Shown here: positions 1-61,124 of the stretch, one piece after another
Position numbering within the stretch: the stretch's first letter is position 1
Layout of the letters: every line of letters begins with the position of its first letter
From: Chloroflexota bacterium
GTDB taxonomy: Bacteria; Chloroflexota; Anaerolineae; UBA2200; JACIWT01
DNA length: 64,000 nucleotides
Direction of reading: 5' to 3'
Assembly (NCBI GenBank): GCA_014360825.1
Contig: JACIWT010000004.1
Coordinates: 1-64,000, forward strand
Notes under the pieces: generated by a model
The model's database searches: none
What the model saw: the letters and a program-made list of their open reading frames with translations, nothing else
Told to the model about the DNA's origin: nothing
Program-made: the position numbers and the translations under genes

Positions 1-284
1 GGCGGGCGATGTAGGGGCGACCCATGTGGGTGCCCTACTGGGCGGGCACGAGGCCTGCCCCTACGGTGAATGCCCTTGTGGGCGGGCGATGTAGGGGCGA
101 CCCATGTGGGTGCCCTACTGGGCGGGCACGAGGCCCGCCCCTACAGTGAATGCCCTTCTGGGCGGGCGATGTAGGGGCGACCCATGTGGGCGCCCTACTG
201 GGCGGGCACGAGGCCCGCCCCTACAATGAATGCCCTCGTGGGCGGGCGATGTAGGGGCGACCCGCCGGGTCGCCCCTACTGGGC
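1..284. repeat. 80-bp tandem repeat, about 3.5 copies
   Basis: Three near-identical 80-bp units begin at 1, 81 and 161, followed by a partial unit from 241. Each unit starts GGCGGGCGATGTAGGGGCGA and holds the core GTAGGGGCGACCC and its inverse. The last, partial unit ends in a perfect palindrome at 251-279 (13-bp arms GTAGGGGCGACCC around GCC). The array runs into the window edge, so its true length is unknown. It lies just past the stop of the DUF5615 gene. Units differ by only a few bases, which points to recent expansion. There is no constant-repeat/variable-spacer pattern, so it is not CRISPR. Confidence 0.9.
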
Positions 285-3808: not shown

Positions 3809-4541
3809 CGTCTAATTCTACCTTGTAGGACAAATTGGCAATTTGTCCTACGGGCGGCTATGGAAAGCCGCCCGACGATCTATCGGGACTTTTCTGGGCC
3901 GGGCGGGTTTCCATACCTGCCCGGGATTGCTACTTCGCGTCCCCACCGTATGCGGCGGCTACGGTTGCCGGGCCCCGCCGTCGAATAAATCGCCCGCGGG
4001 CGACGGTTACGGTTGTAGGCCCCGCTGTCGAATGGAATTCGACGGCTACGCGTAGAAAGTCCCTGCGGGACTCTTTTGTCGGCGGGGCGGGTTTCCGTAC
4101 CCGCCCTGCGGCTCGCCGTCCAATGAAATGAAATGGCTCGTGTGTAACGGTTGCCGGGCCCCGCCGAATATGATCGCCCGTATGCGGCGGCTACGGTTGC
4201 CGGGCCCCGCCGTCGAATAGAATTCGACGGCTACTATTGGCAAGTCCCTGCGGGACTCTTCTGTCGGCGGGGCGGGTTTCCATACCCGCCCCGGGGGCAA
4301 CCACGAGGGTTGCCCCTACCGCCTATTTCAACGTGGGGCGGGTTTCCATACCCGCCCTGGGGGGCAACCACAAGGGTTGCCCCCTACGGGCGATTGAAAT
4401 CGTCCGCCTGTGCGGGCGTTGGCGTCCCCCTGCGGGGACGCCCGGCTGAGGGCCCCCGAGGCCGCGACCTCGGTCGCTGGCTGGGGTTTGTAGGGGTGGG
4501 TTTCCATACCCGCCCGGTAGGGGCGACCCGCCGGGTCGCCC
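3809..4541. repeat. REP-rich intergenic region without genes
   Basis: About 730 bp with no credible gene. It is a mosaic of short palindromes. They include GTAGGACAAATTG / CAATTTGTCCTAC (3825-3851), CGTCGAATAGAATTCGACGG, GTCCCTGCGGGACT, several GGGCGGGTTTCCATACCCGC blocks, GGGGCAACCACGAGGGTTGC blocks, and GTAGGGGCGACCC palindromes (4517-4545). Much of the mosaic recurs in the same order at 7070-7720, so the two stretches flanking the histidine kinase are related. The final palindrome runs into the last codons of the kinase gene. Confidence 0.85.
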
Positions 4542-6944
4542 CTACTTCGCCGCATTTCTATTTTTGGTGACGTCAGAAACGGGTTCCAGGTTCCCGTTGG
4601 TAGGAGTTTCCTCTTTCGCGGCGGGAAGCCGCACTGTAACCCAGGTCCCTTCCCCCAGGCGGCTCTCCACGCGGATGAATCCCCCATGGCGTTTCACCAC
4701 GCCATAGCAAGTGGCCAGGCCCAGCCCAGCGTGCCCTTCGCCCTTGGTGGTGAAGAAGGGCTCGAAAAGCCGCGCCTTCACCTCCGGCGGCATCCCCACC
4801 CCAGTGTCCGCCAGTTCCATCACCACCCAATCGCCATCGGTGCGGGTGCGGATAGACATAGTCCCGCCCTTGGGCATGGCCTCCACGGCATTGGCGATGA
4901 GGTTCATGAGCATCTGCTGCAGGTCGGCAGAATGGCCGCGGATGGAGCGAACTAACCCCAGTTGCAGGGATAGATGGATGGTGATGCCCTGCTCTTTTGG
5001 GGCGTCGTGCCACTGGGGGCGGGTGGACTGCACCACGTCGCGGATCAATTGGTTGATGCCGATCAACAGCGCGGGTTCCTCCTCGTCTCTGGGGCGATAG
5101 AACTCTCGCAGCCGGTTGACAATCCGCGTGGCGTCGAGGACGCCCTGGCGTACCTGCTCCAGGTCGCTGCGCACTTGACTCGGCAAGGCTGGGTCGCGCA
5201 GAGCCATCAACAGGAAACCCAACATCGGGGTGAGGGTGTTGTTGAAGTCGTGGACGATGCCCGAGGCCATTTCGCCCAGGGCGCGCAGTCGCTCTACTTT
5301 GAGCACCTCTTCTTGGGCCACCTGAAGGCGCTCGTAGGCTGCCTTTAAATCCTCATACATCCGGGCGTTCTGCAAAGCGACGGCGGCCTGGGCTGCCAAA
5401 AGGCGGATCAGCGAGACCTCCTCCTCGGTGAAAACGCGCTTTTTCCCGATCTCGTGCACGCCCAATGCGCCGATGATCTGCCCCTGCCACTCCATCGGCA
5501 CCGCCAGTGCCGAGCCAAAAGACACGCCGTCGTACTGGGGCGATCTCCCCTCCCAGTTGGCGTAATCCTCTACTGTCATTGGCTGGCCGGTCTGCACTAC
5601 TTTGCCGGCCAGACCCTCGCCTACTTTCAGCCGTGTGCCGATGAACCGGCAGGCCTGGTTGGAAGCGCTGACCAACTCGAGTTCTTGCGCGTCCGGGTAA
5701 TACAGATCTATGGTGCCGCCATCGGCGCCCAGGAGATCGGCAGCGTGGCGAACGATTTTCTGCAACAACTTCTGGGTATCCAATTGCGAAGTGATGTCCA
5801 GGCTGATCTCGTAAAGGGCGGCCAATTCTTGGGTGCGCCGATGTGTCTGCTCCAGAAGGCGGGCGTTCTGCAGGGCCACGGCGGCCTGGGCTGCTAAGAG
5901 GCGGGCCAGCGAGACCTCCTCCTCGCTGAAGGCGCGTTTCTTCCGCAGGGCTTGCGCCTCCAATACGCCTATGACCTGCCCCTGCCACTCCATCGGCACC
6001 GCCAGAATGGAGCCAAAGACGGCCTCAGCGAACTGTGGTGATCTTCCATTCCAGGTAGCGTAGTCCTCAACCGCGATGGGTTGGCCGGTCTGCACCACTT
6101 TCCCGTCCAGACCCTCACCGACTTTGAGCCTCGTGCCGATGAACTGGACATCGGGGCCATAGGCGCTGACCAACTCCACTTCCTCTGTCCCCGCATCATA
6201 GAGGGCGATGGTGCTGCCCTCGGTCCCCAGGAGTTTGGCGGCGTGGCGGGTGATCTTCTCGAATAGTTTCTGGGTGACCAGTAGCGAGGCGATGTCCAGG
6301 TTGATGTCGTGGAGAGTAGCCAGGTCCGCGCTCCTATCCCGGGCTTCTTTCAGCATCCGCGCGTTCTCCAGGGCTACTGCAGCGTGGTCGGCCAGGCCGG
6401 TGAGGAAATCCAGATCCCCTAGCTCGAACTCGCGCTCCCCCAGCCGGCGCAGGGTGATGACGCCGATGAGCCGATCTTGGAACAAAAGGGGCGCGGAGAG
6501 GAGCGATTCCGGTTCGCCACCAGGTGTGCCGGGGATGTGTTTCGCCCGCGGGTCACGTTCGGCGTGGTTCACGATCTCCCCGATCCTGGTCTGGGCTACG
6601 TAGCCGGTGATGCCTTCCCCCACCTTCACCGGGGCGGCCAGCGTCTCGGCGGCGAATTCGCCTATGGCGACGATGGGTTGTAGTTCCTGGCCGGATGAAT
6701 CTAAGAGGTAGATGGTGCCCTCGTCGGCGTTTAACAGTTGCAGAGCCCGGCGGACGATGGAGTCGAGGATGGTCTGCGTATCCAGAGAAGACGAGAGTTC
6801 GTGGATTACTCCGAGCAGGGCAACGAGTTGGTCGTGGCGCTGCTGGAGTCGGGCTTCGGTTTCGCTGGGCGGGGGAGCACTGCGCGCCGCATCGAGGTCC
6901 GATGTCACGTGGAGCGTCTTCCGATGCTTGCCCTGTTTGGCCAT
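4542..6944 (-). CDS. cytoplasmic histidine kinase with three GAF domains
   Basis: An 800-residue sensor kinase without membrane segments. Three GAF domains lie in tandem at roughly residues 35-190, 205-360 and 375-535; the second and third are close copies (both contain FIGTRLKVGEGL and VVQTGQP). They are followed by a short coiled coil, a phosphoacceptor domain (GEMASGIVHDFNN, His565) and an HATPase domain with N-box NLIANAVEAMP, G1 DTGVGMPPE and F/G2 FEPFFTTKGEGHAGLGLA. The VHDFNN form of the H-box is typical of NtrB-like kinases. ATG 6944 is preceded by GGAG at about 9 bases. No response regulator is adjacent, so the output partner is unknown. Upstream there is an AT-rich promoter candidate at 7037-7065. 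The ligand of the GAF domains cannot be told from sequence. Confidence 0.9.
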   Translation of the reverse strand: MAKQGKHRKTLHVTSDLDAARSAPPPSETEARLQQRHDQLVALLGVIHELSSSLDTQTILDSIVRRALQLLNADEGTIYLLDSSGQELQPIVAIGEFAAETLAAPVKVGEGITGYVAQTRIGEIVNHAERDPRAKHIPGTPGGEPESLLSAPLLFQDRLIGVITLRRLGEREFELGDLDFLTGLADHAAVALENARMLKEARDRSADLATLHDINLDIASLLVTQKLFEKITRHAAKLLGTEGSTIALYDAGTEEVELVSAYGPDVQFIGTRLKVGEGLDGKVVQTGQPIAVEDYATWNGRSPQFAEAVFGSILAVPMEWQGQVIGVLEAQALRKKRAFSEEEVSLARLLAAQAAVALQNARLLEQTHRRTQELAALYEISLDITSQLDTQKLLQKIVRHAADLLGADGGTIDLYYPDAQELELVSASNQACRFIGTRLKVGEGLAGKVVQTGQPMTVEDYANWEGRSPQYDGVSFGSALAVPMEWQGQIIGALGVHEIGKKRVFTEEEVSLIRLLAAQAAVALQNARMYEDLKAAYERLQVAQEEVLKVERLRALGEMASGIVHDFNNTLTPMLGFLLMALRDPALPSQVRSDLEQVRQGVLDATRIVNRLREFYRPRDEEEPALLIGINQLIRDVVQSTRPQWHDAPKEQGITIHLSLQLGLVRSIRGHSADLQQMLMNLIANAVEAMPKGGTMSIRTRTDGDWVVMELADTGVGMPPEVKARLFEPFFTTKGEGHAGLGLATCYGVVKRHGGFIRVESRLGEGTWVTVRLPAAKEETPTNGNLEPVSDVTKNRNAAK

Positions 6945-7722
6945 GATGTATTCTCCGTTTGGGCGGCAGATTTTGCGGCGAAACGCAATCATCCGCCATG
7001 GGGCGGATGATGCGGGAGAATTTATGTTGTAAATAATTTGTAACACAAAATCCGAATTTTGTCAAGTACCTTTAGCGGAGTGCACAGGGGGCGCCTGGCT
7101 GAAAGTTCCCCAGACCCGCCCCGCCGTCGAATGGAATCGCCCGTATGCGACGGCCACGGTTGCCGGGTCCTCGCCGTCGAATAGAATTCGACGGCTACGA
7201 GTAGAAAGTCCCTGCGGGACTCTGTTGTCGTAGGGGCGGGTTTCCATACCCGCCACGGGGGCAACCACGAGGGTTGCCTCTACGGGCGATTGAAATCGTC
7301 CGCCTGTGCGGGCGTTGGTGTCCCCGCAGAGGGACGCCCTTGGGGTAGGACAAATTGCCAATTTGTCCTACAGGCGGCTATGGAAAGCCGCCCGACGATC
7401 TATCGGGACTCTTCTGGGCCGAGCGGGTTTCCATACCTGCCCGGTAGGGGCGACCCGGCGGGTCGCCCCTACTTCGCGTCCCCACCGTATGCGACGGCCA
7501 CGGTTGCCGAGCCCCGCCGTCGAATGAAATCGCCCGTGTGCGACGGCTACGGGTCCCCGCCGTCGAATAGAATTCGACGGCTACGATTGGGAAGTCCCTG
7601 CGGGACTCTTTTGTCGTAGGGGCGGGTTTCTATACCCGCCCTGGGGGGCAACCACAAGGGTTGCCCCTACCGTCTCACGGAATATTCGTGGCCCCTGGGG
7701 CGACCACGAGGGTTGCCCGTAC
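6945..7722. repeat. promoter region of the kinase followed by REP-rich DNA
   Basis: The first 130 bp are AT-rich and hold the kinase promoter candidate. From about 7080 to 7720 the sequence repeats the palindrome mosaic of 3825-4541, including GTAGGACAAATTG / CAATTTGTCCTAC (7345-7371), GTAGGGGCGACCC around GGC (7444-7472), GTCCCTGCGGGACT and AATAGAATTCGACGG. No gene is seen. The GH57 gene ends at 7723, just inside the last repeat. Confidence 0.8.
7037..7065 (-). promoter_or_regulatory. sigma70-type promoter candidate for the histidine kinase
   Basis: On the minus strand TTGACA (7060-7065) and TACAAA (7037-7042) are separated by 17 bp, in the only AT-rich stretch of the neighbourhood, about 95 bp upstream of the kinase ATG. 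Confidence 0.5.
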
Positions 7723-11339: not shown

Positions 11340-11775
11340 GTCTGGCAGGGCACCCACAAGGGGTGCCCCTACACCGCCTATCGTGGGGGCAGGCCTCGTG
11401 CCTGCCCACCCGGGGGCGAACCGCCAGAGTGCCCCCATACCGCCTATCGTGGGGGCGGGCCTCGTGTCTGCCCACCCGGGGGCGAACCGCCAGAGTGCCC
11501 CCATACCGCCTATCGTGGGGGCGGGGCTTGTGTCTGCCCACCCGGGGGCGAACCGCCATGGTGCCCCTACACCGCCTATCGTGGGGGCGGGGCTTGTGTC
11601 TGCCCACCCGGGGGCGAACCGCCATGGTGCCCCTACACCGCCTATCGTGGGGGCAGGCCTCGTGCCTGCCCACCCGGGGGCGAACCGCCAGAGTGCCCCT
11701 ACACCGCCTATCGTGGGGGCAGGCCTCGTGCCTGCCCACCTGGGGGCGAACCGCCGGTTCGCCCCTACACCACCC
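11340..11775. repeat. 66-bp tandem repeat, about 6.5 copies
   Basis: Units recur at exactly 66 bp (TATCGTGGGGGC at 11379, 11445, 11511, 11577, 11643 and 11709). Each carries CAGGCCTCGTGCCTGCCCAC and GGGGGCGAACCGCC blocks. Because 66 is a multiple of three and the unit lacks stops, long open frames exist in several frames on both strands; these are artefacts of the repeat, not genes. The array separates the ATPase gene from the RAYT gene at 11783. Confidence 0.9.
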
Positions 11776-11782
11776 GTTAATT

Positions 11783-12370
11783 CTACAGGGAATCCAGCCA
11801 CCGATCAAAATCATCCTCGCCCTGGCGATCAGGGTTTTCACGGTCCAACACCCAGCGTAGTGGGTTGGTGAGGATGTATTCCCGGATGCGATCCAGCGCC
11901 GCCTCGTTGCGGATGATGTGTTCCCAGTAGTTGCGTTGCCAGACAGGAGTGCCAGGGGCACCACGAGTTTTGGCGATGCGTTTGGTGACAATGGATTTGA
12001 ATTGGGCGACGATGGCGCCCAACGATTTAGAAACCAGCCCTGTGGGGTATCCGTTGGCAGTAGGGGCGACCCGCCGGGTCGCCCCTACTGCATCATCCAC
12101 AATCCAAACGATGCCGTGGATATGATTCGGCATAACCACGAATTCATCCAATTGCACGTATGGACGCACCAGGGCGGTCCTTTCCCATTCCTCCGCTACG
12201 ATTCTGCCGTATTCCGAAAGGATCATCTCCCCGTCCACCACCTCGCCGAATAACATTTCGTGCTGGTGGGCGACCAAGGTGATGAAATATGCGCCAGGCT
12301 GGGTGTAGTCGTAGCCTTTGAGGCGGATGGAGCGGCGGTGGTGTTTTTGCGGGTCGTAATATATGGGCAT
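11783..12370 (-). CDS. REP-associated tyrosine transposase (RAYT, Y1 family), copy 1
   Basis: A 195-residue Y1/IS200-like transposase of the RAYT group. It starts MPIYYDPQKHHRRSIRLKGY. The metal-binding HxH motif is MPNHIHGIV (H83, H85), and the conserved C-terminal helix reads WQRNYWEHIIRNEAALDRI followed by YILTNPLRW. Such proteins nick and join single-stranded DNA at REP hairpins and are thought to spread REP sequences rather than themselves. Residues 95-104 (VGATRRVAPT) are encoded by a perfect REP palindrome at 12060-12088, placed about 10 residues after HxH. The protein at 37492 carries a different palindrome at the equivalent point. It may still be active, since the frame is intact. 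Confidence 0.9.
   Translation of the reverse strand: MPIYYDPQKHHRRSIRLKGYDYTQPGAYFITLVAHQHEMLFGEVVDGEMILSEYGRIVAEEWERTALVRPYVQLDEFVVMPNHIHGIVWIVDDAVGATRRVAPTANGYPTGLVSKSLGAIVAQFKSIVTKRIAKTRGAPGTPVWQRNYWEHIIRNEAALDRIREYILTNPLRWVLDRENPDRQGEDDFDRWLDSL
12060..12088. repeat. REP palindrome inside RAYT copy 1
   Basis: Arms GTAGGGGCGACCC / GGGTCGCCCCTAC around GCC, identical to the free copies at 251-279 and 4517-4545. It is translated on the minus strand as VGATRRVAPT. Confidence 0.9.
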
Positions 12371-33563: not shown

Positions 33564-33574
33564 GCCCTGCCACT

Positions 33575-33611
33575 AAAGACTTCCGAAGTCTTGAAGACTT
33601 CGGAAGTCTTT
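33575..33611. repeat. REP hairpin GACTTCCGAAGTC, left flank of RAYT copy 2
   Basis: Perfect 16-bp arms AAAGACTTCCGAAGTC / GACTTCGGAAGTCTTT around TTGAA. Each arm is nearly palindromic by itself. It also lies 12 bp after proC and could end that transcript. Confidence 0.9.
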
Positions 33612-33656
33612 AAGTCTTTAGGTTGAAGTCTGACAAAGACAAGGAGATGTTTGCTT

Positions 33657-34250
33657 ATGCCTCGACGCACCATTCAATTTGTGCCTGGCGAATACTACCA
33701 CCTCTATAATCGAGGTAATAATCGGCAGAACATTTTCTTTGAGCGTGAGAACTATCTGTTCTTTCTGCGGCAGATTCGCCTATACCTCGCCCCGCAGATA
33801 AGGACTTCGGAGGTCTGTAAAGGTATAGTGGTAGCCTATTGCCTGATGCCAAATCACTTTCATTTGCTGCTCACTCCTCAGAGTGAGAATCTCTCCCACC
33901 AGATGCAATTGTTGTCCATTTCTTTCACCAAAGCGATGAACCGACGGTACAGCCGGGTTGGAGCGCTCTTCCAGGGGGCGTTCCAGGCCGTGCACGTAGA
34001 ACGGAATGAGCACCTGTTGCACCTATCACGTTATATTCATCTGAACCCCGTAGCAGCAGGGCTAGTCAGACGGCCCGAGGATTGGGAGTTCTCCAGCTAC
34101 CGTGACTACATTGGCCAACGCAATGGCGCCTTGCCCGCGCCCGGGATTATCCTCTCGCAGTTCTCTAGTTGTAGGGAATATCAGTCGTTTGTAGAATCCT
34201 ACGCCGAACACGACTTGAGCGTTATCGCCCATCTGTTGATAGATGACTAG
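33657..34250 (+). CDS. REP-associated tyrosine transposase (RAYT), copy 2
   Basis: A 197-residue Y1 transposase starting MPRRTIQFVPGEYYHLYNRG. It contains HxH (MPNHFHLLL, H67/H69), the GALFQGAFQAVHV segment and RYIHLNPVAAGLV. AAGGAG lies 10 bases before ATG 33657. Perfect hairpins of one family flank it on both sides (33575-33611 and 34261-34299), and a degenerate half of the same palindrome (33801-33816) is translated inside the gene as RTSEV, just before the HxH strand. This suggests the enzyme acts on that hairpin family. The protein differs strongly from the copies at 11783 and 37492 and is closer to the one at 60483. Confidence 0.92.
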   Translation: MPRRTIQFVPGEYYHLYNRGNNRQNIFFERENYLFFLRQIRLYLAPQIRTSEVCKGIVVAYCLMPNHFHLLLTPQSENLSHQMQLLSISFTKAMNRRYSRVGALFQGAFQAVHVERNEHLLHLSRYIHLNPVAAGLVRRPEDWEFSSYRDYIGQRNGALPAPGIILSQFSSCREYQSFVESYAEHDLSVIAHLLIDD

Positions 34251-34260
34251 CCCACAGACT

Positions 34261-34299
34261 CACAGACTTCCGAAGTCTTCAAGACTTCGGAAGTCTGTG
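34261..34299. repeat. REP hairpin GACTTCCGAAGTC, right flank of RAYT copy 2
   Basis: Perfect 19-bp arms (CACAGACTTCCGAAGTCTT and its inverse) around a single C. It lies 10 bp after the RAYT stop and 10 bp before the stop of the convergent membrane-protein gene. Confidence 0.9.
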
Positions 34300-34309
34300 A
34301 TGTCCATAC

Positions 34310-37491: not shown

Positions 37492-38040
37492 CTATGTTTT
37501 CCGTTCAGGATTCTCGATGTCCTGATCCCATTGGGTTGGGTTCAGGTAGATGTATTCGCGGATGGCATCCCATTCGCGTTCATTGCGGATAATGTGTTCG
37601 TAATAATTGCGTTGCCAGACGACAGCGCCGGGGGTACAGCGCCATTCATTGATGCGTTTGGTAGCAGCGGATTTAAATGAGCGCACGATAGTTGCCAATG
37701 AACCCGACAATGGCCTACCAAATCGTTCCATCGTAGGGGCACGGCATGCCGTGCCCCTACGATAATCCGCGCGGTCGAGGATGACGATGATCCCGTGTAT
37801 GTGGTTGGGCATGACCACGTATTCGTCCAATTCCACGTCGCGAAAATGTACTGGTATGGCGTTCCAACATACGGCTGCAATCTCGCCCAATGGGTTCAAC
37901 ACCATCTTGCCATCCGCGATCGTGCCAAATAGGCATTCTCGGTTCTGGGTGCAAATGGTCACGAAATACGCCCCGGCCTGCGAATAATCGTATCCGCGCA
38001 GGCGAATGGAACGGCGACGATGTTCTGCCGGATTGCACAT
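37492..38040 (-). CDS. REP-associated tyrosine transposase (RAYT), copy 3
   Basis: A 182-residue Y1 transposase of the same subgroup as the one at 11783 (HRRRSIRLRGYDYSQAGAYF; HxH MPNHIHGII, H80/H82; WQRNYYEHIIRNEREWD). The ATG at 38040 follows GGAGGG by a few bases; the longer frame upstream is 31-bp repeat DNA. Residues 94-103 (RRGTACRAPT) come from a perfect 28-bp palindrome at 37733-37760 with the core GTAGGGGCACGG. The site is equivalent to the palindrome in the copy at 11783, but the palindrome sequence differs. The gene lies 32 bp upstream of glgP in the same direction and may disturb or drive its transcription. Confidence 0.9.
   Translation of the reverse strand: MCNPAEHRRRSIRLRGYDYSQAGAYFVTICTQNRECLFGTIADGKMVLNPLGEIAAVCWNAIPVHFRDVELDEYVVMPNHIHGIIVILDRADYRRGTACRAPTMERFGRPLSGSLATIVRSFKSAATKRINEWRCTPGAVVWQRNYYEHIIRNEREWDAIREYIYLNPTQWDQDIENPERKT
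37733..37760. repeat. perfect palindrome inside RAYT copy 3
   Basis: Arms GTAGGGGCACGGCA / TGCCGTGCCCCTAC with no loop, 28 bp, translated in frame as RRGTACRAPT. Confidence 0.9.
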
Positions 38041-38069
38041 CATCCCTCCGTGGGGCACACCCGTGTGCT

Positions 38070-38220
38070 GGGCGGACACAAGGCCCGCCCCTACACCGAT
38101 GGGCGGACTCATAGGCCCGCCCCTACACCGATGGGTGGACACAAGGCCCGCCCCTACGCCGATGGGCGGACACATAGGCCCGCCCCTACGCCGATGGGCG
38201 GACACATAGGTCCGCCCCGA
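38070..38220. repeat. 31-32-bp tandem repeat, about 5 copies
   Basis: Units start GGGCGGACACA at 38070, 38101, 38133, 38164 and 38196, each with AGGCCCGCCCCTACACCGAT. The array covers the last codons and stop of hypB and the leader of RAYT copy 3. Confidence 0.9.
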
Positions 38221-39295: not shown

Positions 39296-39324
39296 GTAGG
39301 GGCAGGTCTGAGACCTGCCCCTAC
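39296..39324. repeat. REP palindrome between hypA and the HAD gene
   Basis: Arms GTAGGGGCAGGTCT / AGACCTGCCCCTAC around G. It overlaps the stop region of the HAD hydrolase gene (39321). Confidence 0.85.
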
Positions 39325-59979: not shown

Positions 59980-60426
59980 ATGTTGGAGGAGTTCAAAAAG
60001 TTCGTTATGCGGGGGAACGTGTTGGATATGGCCGTGGGCATCATCATCGGCGGGGCTTTCGGCAAAATCGTCACTTCACTTGTGAACGACGTTTTGATGC
60101 CGCCCATCGGGCTGTTGCTGGGCAAGGTGGATTTCTCCAACCTGTTCATCAATCTGTCGGGCCGGCCCTACACCTCGCTGGCAGATGCGAAAGCGGCTGG
60201 AGCAGCCACTATCAACTACGGCGTATTCCTCAACACCGTGATCGATTTCATCGTCGTGGCCTTCGCCGTCTTCCTATTGATCCGACAGGTCAACCGATTG
60301 TGGCAGCCCGAGGCACCGCCAGCCGCGCCCACTACCAAAGAGTGCCCCTATTGCCTCTCCACCATCCCCATCCAAGCCACGCGCTGCGCGTATTGCACTT
60401 CGGAACTGAAGGCGGCAAAAACATAG
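59980..60426 (+). CDS. mscL: large-conductance mechanosensitive channel with C-terminal zinc ribbon
   Basis: A 148-residue MscL. It has an N-terminal amphipathic helix ([19 protein letters not shown]), TM1 with [20 protein letters not shown], the external loop, and TM2 ([20 protein letters not shown]). The usual C-terminal helix is followed by a four-cysteine ribbon [18 protein letters not shown], a form seen in some Chloroflexota and cyanobacteria. It opens under osmotic downshock. GAGGAGGG lies 6 bases before ATG 59980. A RAYT gene follows after a REP hairpin. Confidence 0.95.
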
Positions 60427-60457
60427 TCTTGCGAGGGTTCCAAACCCTCGCAAGACT
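60425..60457. repeat. REP palindrome, left flank of RAYT copy 4
   Basis: Perfect 15-bp arms AGTCTTGCGAGGGTT / AACCCTCGCAAGACT around CCA, overlapping the mscL stop. Confidence 0.9.
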
Positions 60458-60482
60458 TAGGGCTCAGAGGATTAGATCAAAC

Positions 60483-61040
60483 ATGCACTTAGCAGGCCAC
60501 TATTACCACGTCTACAACCGAGGCAGCAATCGAGGGCGTATTTTTGCCAACCCAGGCAATTACCTATTCTTGCTAAAACGCACCAAACTATTTCTAGCCG
60601 GCTACCCGCTGAGCATGATCGCATACTGTCTCATGCCCAACCATTACCATTTCTTATTGCGCCCAGAAGAAGACAACGTCCTCTCACCATTTATCCAACG
60701 CCTTTTCAGTAGCTACACCCAGGCATTTAACAAACAACAGAAACGTAGCGGCACGCTGTTCGAGGGACGCGCAAAAAGCGTCCTGGTGGATACTGAAGAA
60801 TACATTCTTCACCTCTGTCGCTACATTCACTTGAACCCTGTTCAGGCTGGACTGGTTGCGCATCCAGGGGAGTGGCCCTACAGCAACTATCTTGAATGGG
60901 TCGAACGACGCGATGGTACTCTTGTGGACCGTGCATTTGTGCGGCAGTTTTTCCACACCGCAGCCGATTATGAGGCATTCGTGTTGAGCGAGATAAACCC
61001 ACTACTGGAGCAAAAACTCCGCGCGTATTACCTGGATTGA
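60483..61040 (+). CDS. REP-associated tyrosine transposase (RAYT), copy 4
   Basis: A 185-residue Y1 transposase: MHLAGHYYHVYNRGSNRGRI, HxH MPNHYHFLL (H54/H56), the segment RSGTLFEGRAKSVLV and RYIHLNPVQAGLV. ATG 60483 was chosen because the residues match the family start; the open frame before it runs through the REP and mscL. It is flanked by hairpins of the TTGCGAGGG family at 60425, 61048 (partial) and 61092, making it the likely enzyme for that family, which also occurs at 1197, 47089 and 58195. It contains no internal palindrome, unlike the copies at 11783, 33657 and 37492. Confidence 0.92.
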   Translation: MHLAGHYYHVYNRGSNRGRIFANPGNYLFLLKRTKLFLAGYPLSMIAYCLMPNHYHFLLRPEEDNVLSPFIQRLFSSYTQAFNKQQKRSGTLFEGRAKSVLVDTEEYILHLCRYIHLNPVQAGLVAHPGEWPYSNYLEWVERRDGTLVDRAFVRQFFHTAADYEAFVLSEINPLLEQKLRAYYLD

Positions 61041-61047
61041 TGGGATA

Positions 61048-61124
61048 GCCTTGCGAAGGTTGGAAACCTTCTCTCTACAGCCTTGCTCTACAGCCTTGCG
61101 AGGGTTCCAAACCCTCGCAAGGCT
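61048..61124. repeat. REP palindromes, right flank of RAYT copy 4
   Basis: A broken copy (AGCCTTGCGAAGGTTGGAAA, from 61048) and a perfect one at 61092-61124 with arms AGCCTTGCGAGGGTT around CCA. Together with 60425 they bracket the transposase gene. Confidence 0.9.

Follow-up and report, generated by a model that had tools for sequence, protein, structure and literature searches.

The closest described relatives of the genes analysed here are the TnpAREP enzymes of subclass 2.4 (Quentin et al. 2018, PMC6006769), which corresponds to RAYT group 4 in the scheme of Bertels et al. 2017. The parts of the report covered here name in-frame REPs between the HuH and Y motifs as a unique hallmark of the subclass, describe these in-gene REPs as often "double foot" (GT[AG]G...C[TC]AC), give a median HuH-Y distance of 88 aa, and regard the insert as peripheral and of little consequence for activity. 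In the canonical REPtron, E. coli TnpAREP/rayT, REPs with a GTAG foot flank the gene, enzyme and REP co-evolve, and the DNA-binding helix α3, equivalent to αC, contacts the REP stem, where K82 makes a specific contact with a base (Corneloup 2021, PMC8266576); PDB 4er8 is this enzyme bound to a REP hairpin. The same authors stated that the recognition of perfect-palindrome REPs by TnpAREP was unresolved. Palindromes in frame within genes have also been reported elsewhere. Some of the GTAG-tagged palindromes of Di Nocera et al. 2013 (PMC3733652) lie in frame inside unrelated genes, and the Rickettsia palindromic elements (RPE), as far as that paper's coverage of them extends, occupy open reading frames of many unrelated host genes without an enzyme-substrate match.

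The in-gene hairpin itself is thus already described (PMC6006769). What seems to be new is a readable match between a protein helix and the hairpin, together with signs that the two are swapped jointly between genes; our survey of the literature on the repeat sequence and on group 4 found nothing beyond the works cited here. The parts of PMC6006769 covered here report neither a link between insert and recognition residues nor cassette exchange, both of which we propose, and in contrast to that report we tie the insert to the recognition helix. In our reading, the in-gene palindrome is probably the enzyme's cognate double-foot REP, read by αC and swapped with its reader as a cassette. The window (the whole stretch of 64,000 nucleotides analysed) carries two such genes, with the following features.

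11783..12370, minus strand: TnpAREP/RAYT gene 1 (195 aa, P0001), assigned from a sub-threshold NF047646 match and an AlphaFold2 model compared with 4er8
12116..12124, minus strand: HuH motif codons H83 I84 H85 of gene 1, invariant in the homologue alignment (A2)
12057..12091, minus strand: in-frame perfect palindrome GCAGTAGGGGCGACCCGGCGGGTCGCCCCTACTGC of gene 1, 35 bp, residues 94-105
12060-12088, minus strand: double-foot REP of gene 1, GTAGGGGC-GACCCG-N-CGGGTC-GCCCCTAC, within the 35-bp palindrome
12002..12025, minus strand: first 8 αC codons of gene 1 (SLGAIVAQ), putative recognition residues from covariation with the palindrome core
12002-12091, minus strand: proposed specificity cassette of gene 1 (palindrome, spacer and first αC codons), delimited by an identity boundary
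37492..38043, minus strand: TnpAREP/RAYT gene 2 (183 aa, ATG at 38043), 53% identical to P0001
37730..37763, minus strand: in-frame perfect palindrome ATCGTAGGGGCACGGCATGCCGTGCCCCTACGAT of gene 2, 34 bp
37733-37760, minus strand: double-foot REP of gene 2, GTAGGGGC-ACGGCA-TGCCGT-GCCCCTAC
37678..37701, minus strand: first 8 αC codons of gene 2 (SLATIVRS)

A preliminary description had reported perfect in-frame palindromes some 10 to 12 residues past the HxH motif of both proteins, and coordinates and translations agree: VGATRRVAPT of gene 1 begins at residue 95, 10 past the second His (H85) of H83-I-H85, and RRGTACRAPT of gene 2 likewise begins at residue 95, 12 past H83 (HxH at 81-83). Perfection also holds; the length of 28-29 bp was too short, the palindromes measuring 35 bp (17-base arms, 1 central base) and 34 bp (arms of 17, no loop). 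The end of gene 2 at 37492 stands, while its start moves from 38040 to the ATG at 38043. The predicted folding energies of the in-gene hairpins are strong (-29.8 to -34.7 kcal/mol), and the window contains 10 palindrome centres with 14-base arms, against a mean of 0.0 in shuffled windows. Five genes of this type exist across the genome of 2.89 Mb (64 contigs); each holds a palindrome at the corresponding position, and no two of these palindromes are alike.

Judged by sequence and predicted fold, both window genes are TnpAREP/RAYT Y1/HuH single-strand DNA nucleases of the subclass 2.4/RAYT group 4 kind. NCBIfam NF047646 (REP_Tyr_transpos) matches gene 1 with E=8.3e-19 and 67.9 bits and gene 2 with E=2.8e-17 and 62.9 bits, both below the curated cut-off of 80; Pfam Y1_Tnp gives no match to gene 1 and 23 bits, exactly its cut-off, for gene 2. 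The AlphaFold2 model of gene 1 (pLDDT 84.8) finds 4er8 as its best match among all PDB entries (Z 12.5; rmsd 2.5 over 129 residues), so the fold is that of the E. coli enzyme. HuH, WQRN and Tyr165, presumably the catalytic tyrosine of gene 1, are invariant in the homologue alignment. In the model, the palindrome-encoded residues 94-105 fall in a loop (95-108, pLDDT < 50) between strand 83-90 and helix αC (117-136).

We gathered 253 distinct homologous genes from genome contigs and whole-genome searches. An anchored palindrome with arms of at least 8 is present in 195, a share that is probably biased upward because the queries contained the insert peptide. GTAG-footed palindromes accompany the genes both internally and in the flanks, as in RAYTs generally. 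The subclass assignment rests on three features: the in-frame REP between HuH and Y, found in both window genes and in 195/253 homologues; the double foot, GT[AG]G...C[TC]AC, with feet exactly GTAGGGGC in 150/195 and tails GCCCCTAC in 132; and an enlarged HuH-Y distance, with a median of about 84 aa in our set. The HuH/Y1 core, the long and variable HuH-Y distance and the scatter over phyla are likewise shared with subclass 2.4 as far as PMC6006769 is covered here. The E. coli REP, by contrast, has a bulge and lies outside its gene, whereas the REPs described here form perfect palindromes footed at both ends and lie within theirs. Palindrome-bearing genes occur in isolates (Thermus scotoductus DSM 8553, Thermus arciformis, Desulfacinum infernum DSM 9756, Nitrosomonas halophila and Desulfobulbus elongatus), and we accordingly rejected chance or an artefact of metagenome-assembled genomes. 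Relatives were found in 8 of 398 Pseudomonadota genomes, and viral contigs gave two weak relatives only. At several loci the gene carries an additional C-terminal palindrome, for example RDDVRARHAVPLE in L124. In genome G203, the in-gene palindrome region of L177 (and L176) has grown into a long VGAKN run of 15-bp units, with far more repeats in one gene than in its near-identical neighbour.

Compared across these homologues, the in-gene palindrome behaves as DNA rather than as peptide. It is read in phases numbering 126, 64 and 5 genes (n=195), the rare phase being the frame that would read TAG, and in those five genes the foot is degenerate. The palindrome GACCGGCCGGTC is read in two frames (10 and 6 genes), as is ACGGCATGCCGT (4 and 5 genes), and the resulting peptides are unrelated. 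Arms average 12.8, compared with 5.4 when codons are shuffled synonymously so that the peptide is unchanged, with p<=0.01 in 81% of 176 genes. Base pairs run through all four types with pairing retained. It is conceivable that a VGATRRVAPT-like peptide matters and that the palindrome is its by-product, and motifs such as RRVAPT do recur within a class; however, two-frame use, perfection above codon shuffles and the disorder of the loop make this highly improbable, and we rejected it on the first two grounds. The preliminary description had named, as the pattern that would speak against its own view, a peptide conserved while synonymous changes destroy the palindrome. We looked for this and did not find it as a pattern among the homologues: the same palindrome is used in two frames, and in similar-gene pairs the palindrome is 86% identical, compared with 49% and 41% for the 21 bases on either side.

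The match between protein and palindrome emerged from the covariation of protein columns with the six core bases, the insert being masked. The strongest columns (97, 100, 101, 104 and 105, with 94 and 96) form one face of αC, and a second set (49, 52, 53, 56 and 57) forms one face at the end of αB and is most strongly coupled to the innermost base of the core. In an hhalign profile alignment, E. coli K82 falls on column 100 (A122 of gene 1), and the covariation thus recovered the known DNA-reading helix unprompted. The partial rank correlation between αC and core, controlled for identity, is 0.41 (random column sets: mean 0.07, maximum 0.26). Used as a predictor drawn from proteins of other genomes that are <60% identical elsewhere, six αC residues give a core similarity of 0.78 with 48% exact five-base matches, as against 0.36 and 5% for random columns and 0.39 and 8% for the rest of the protein. 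Since the αC columns had been chosen on the same data, a split test was run with Desulfacinum-phylum genomes as the test set, yielding 0.65 versus 0.35 with a training set that holds a few members of this phylum and from which close relatives are excluded by the identity limit. For gene 2, the core predicted from the αC and αB residues, ACGGCA, is the one observed. In the αC consensus numbering S94 L95 G96 A97 I98 V99 R100 G101 F102 K103, the correspondences read as follows.

αC PT..R[SA]: core ACGGC
αC GA..GQ: core GACCC
αC GA..GS: core GACGC
αC GA..R[AS]: core GCAGC
αC ..F.AG: cores centred on GGCC
αC GR..GA: core GGTTCG
αC [PS]E..R plus FKTF: core GGGTTT
αC GQ..R: core GCAATT
αC PK..G: core AATTCA

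In Thermus, the T. scotoductus gene (L057) has αC SIGAIVGAFK with core GACGCG, and the T. arciformis gene (L059) has αC SLGAIVRSFK with core GCAGCG. The code is not strict, because two L056 paralogues with identical αC carry GACCC and GACGC. Shared ancestry alone, with recognition absent, could in principle produce such covariation, as αC and the palindrome are near neighbours in the gene and move jointly, and gene pairs share ancestry and are hence not independent. We consider this distinctly improbable. The remaining columns of the protein do no better than chance pairs in predicting the core (0.39 versus a baseline of 0.37), and the coupled positions, the K82 equivalent among them, share one face of the helix. 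Moreover, in 20 genes without an internal palindrome the flanking REPs match the αC prediction at 0.71 versus 0.41 (0/1000 permutations), so the link between αC and REP is independent of the internal copy, though flanking REPs could also be inherited with the gene. A tree built without insert and αC is poorly supported; on it, core classes change 65 times versus 84 in shuffles, and the core is therefore labile. Independent pairs on supported branches go in the predicted direction, each comparison having too few pairs for significance.

Repeats around the genes bear on what the enzymes recognize. REPs within 1 kb match the gene's own in-gene core at 0.85, as against 0.39 for other genes' cores. 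In 24 genomes with paralogues of differing core, exchanging the internal cores between paralogues always lowered the fit to the prediction from other genomes (0.838 before, 0.560 after; 0/5000), and all five paralogues of the window genome fit their predicted core. In 59/250 genes, internal and nearby flanking REPs are both absent. The window repeats related to the two genes are the following.

11743..11765: flanking REP-like palindrome GGGGCGAACCGCCGGTTCGCCCC, just downstream of gene 1 and counted as a flanking REP of L005
12403..12431: flanking REP-like element GTGGGGGCGAACCGGCGATTCGCCCCTAC, imperfect, just upstream of gene 1
251..279: free copy of the gene 1 palindrome
4517..4545: free copy of the gene 1 palindrome
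7444..7472: free copy of the gene 1 palindrome
39296..39324: free double-foot palindrome with core AGGTCT, matching in kind the palindrome inside the gene of paralogue L008

The free copies of the first palindrome noted earlier are thus confirmed as three exact 29-mers in the window; for the gene 2 palindrome, a search of the whole genome returned no exact free copy. The suggestion that the in-gene type predicts the type abundant in the same genome fared less well. Across seven genomes the match is 0.44 to the own genome versus 0.18 to others, yet it fails in G318, where the in-gene palindrome is GGTTCG and the abundant types are GGGTTT and GCAGCA. The stronger form, in which the in-gene type is the most abundant genomic type, was set aside as only partly true, the free-copy test being small (seven genomes) and mixed. 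As for the idea of a self-target, it holds at the level of sequence, with flanking REPs of the gene's own type and a core predicted by its own DNA-reading helix; cleavage of the in-gene copy in vivo is presumed.

The preliminary description had also considered a tolerated landing site, in which REPs proliferate near RAYTs and in-frame hits in the loop survive without a role. The low pLDDT (<50) and disorder of the loop in the model fit this, as do the REPs found inside unrelated genes of other species (PMC3733652) and the decayed copies, such as L144 and L070 with 13/14 pairs; the position and frame of the insert vary between genes, implying repeated insertion. Set beside the REPs of Di Nocera et al. 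and the RPE, the palindromes here keep to a single site of their cognate enzyme and match it. We regard a tolerated landing site as unlikely. Of 25 sites in the window genome, 4 fall within the five RAYT genes, an enrichment of about 190-fold relative to the remaining sequence, and in-gene copies are perfect more often (88/96) than nearby non-coding ones (30/44; free copies, 90/141), a gap to which mutational constraint on coding sequence could contribute. Passive tolerance also leaves unexplained that each paralogue carries its own type rather than its neighbours' type, and that the boundary of the exchanged unit takes in αC.

This last point comes from mosaic genes, which are best read as the exchange of palindrome, spacer and the first half of αC as one unit. 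L135 and L180, which sit in different families and have the cores GACCGG and ACGGCG, share 93% DNA identity outside the region; identity drops to 33-72% between the loop and mid-αC and then recovers. The L180 cassette resembles those of ACGGC genes with dissimilar backbones, and the L135 cassette those of GACCGG genes. L093 and L259 show the same pattern. In 129 similar-gene pairs with different cores (pairs that are not independent), the first 8 αC codons are identical at 0.58 and the next 10 at 0.79, whereas in pairs with the same core both stretches reach 0.83. By ungapped comparison, the nearest relative shares the core in 100/171 cases when chosen by cassette and in 48/171 when chosen by backbone.

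We turn to a mechanism in which the in-gene palindrome would be the cognate REP, laid out as a GTAG foot, a GGGGC clamp, a six-base specific core and the same elements mirrored up to a closing CTAC. Once single stranded, it would fold into a hairpin with GTAG serving as foot and guide; the αC face would read the core and the end of αB the bases nearer the hairpin tip. The tyrosine most likely nicks at CT, as in characterized TnpAREP enzymes, and the CTAC of the 3' foot would supply a CT that pairs with AG within GTAG, in keeping with the published guide model. The palindrome is maintained as DNA in the disordered surface loop between β3 and αC, where any encoded peptide would be tolerated as long as the frame stays open. 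Binding and nicking of the in-gene copy, also in vivo, would keep it refreshed or promote cassette conversion. Recombination would exchange a unit of about 90-130 bp (palindrome, short spacer and first half of αC) between genes; with the unit exchanged whole, substrate and reader would change together.

Alternatively, the enzyme might bind the hairpin in its mRNA, or in its single-stranded gene DNA, and so limit its own expression. The hairpins are stable (median -22.9 kcal/mol) and lie within the coding region of the very enzyme predicted to read them, and some REP-bound transposases are regulated by mRNA structure, as indicated by the part of the ISPpu9 report covered here (PMC8450116). Yet enzymes of this family are known to act on single-stranded DNA and are not known to bind RNA, the DNA-style GTAG foot is conserved, and a leader could host a regulatory hairpin while sparing the protein. 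An RNA role alone would not predict covariation with a DNA-reading helix. Autoregulation thus appears quite unlikely. Candidate roles of the internal copy are cis propagation with tolerance, cassette conversion and autoregulation; we lean towards a cis target that would be retained, and would be refreshed and exchanged with its reader. Extended to group-4 RAYTs as a whole, we tentatively envisage an exchangeable cassette of ~100 bp with a residue-to-base code, in which self-nicking might drive the conversion that renews both specificities together. The mosaic genes suggest a one-step origin of new REP families that keeps enzyme and substrate matched. With a matched hairpin inside every gene, genomes yield ~170 enzyme-substrate pairs directly. 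These single out a handful of residues on one face of the helix and so provide predictions, residue by residue, of how a single-strand nuclease might be retargeted.

The window contains further repeats of related kinds. Tandem repeats of half-REPs adjoin both genes, at about 11390-11760 beside gene 1 (~60 bp units) and at about 38050-38215 beside gene 2 (~33 bp units). A hairpin family GCCGTCGAAT-NNN-ATTCGACGGC, with no RAYT assigned, is present in six copies (4209, 7173, 7559, 32385, 47349 and 58166), one of which reads GCCGCCGAAT. Another RAYT gene (33651-34250, plus strand), over the Y1_Tnp cut-off and without an internal palindrome, lies between near-identical palindromes of 39-41 bp (33574-33612 and 34260-34300, AGACTTCCGAAGTCTT...), forming a classical REPtron. 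A further RAYT gene (60300-61040, plus strand) is flanked by AGYCTTGCGAGGGTTCC hairpins, with palindromes at 60425-60457 and 61092-61124; free hairpins related to AGYCTTGCGAGGGTTCC are found at 1197, 47088 and 58195. Palindromes of the GTAGGACAARTTGNCAAYTTGTCCTAC family stand at 3825, 7345, 43074 and 50730, and at 1421-1447 and 2105-2133 of L010. On genome contig C8, GTAGGACAARTTGNCAAYTTGTCCTAC also flanks a different RAYT-like gene, and at least four RAYT/REP systems hence coexist in this genome.
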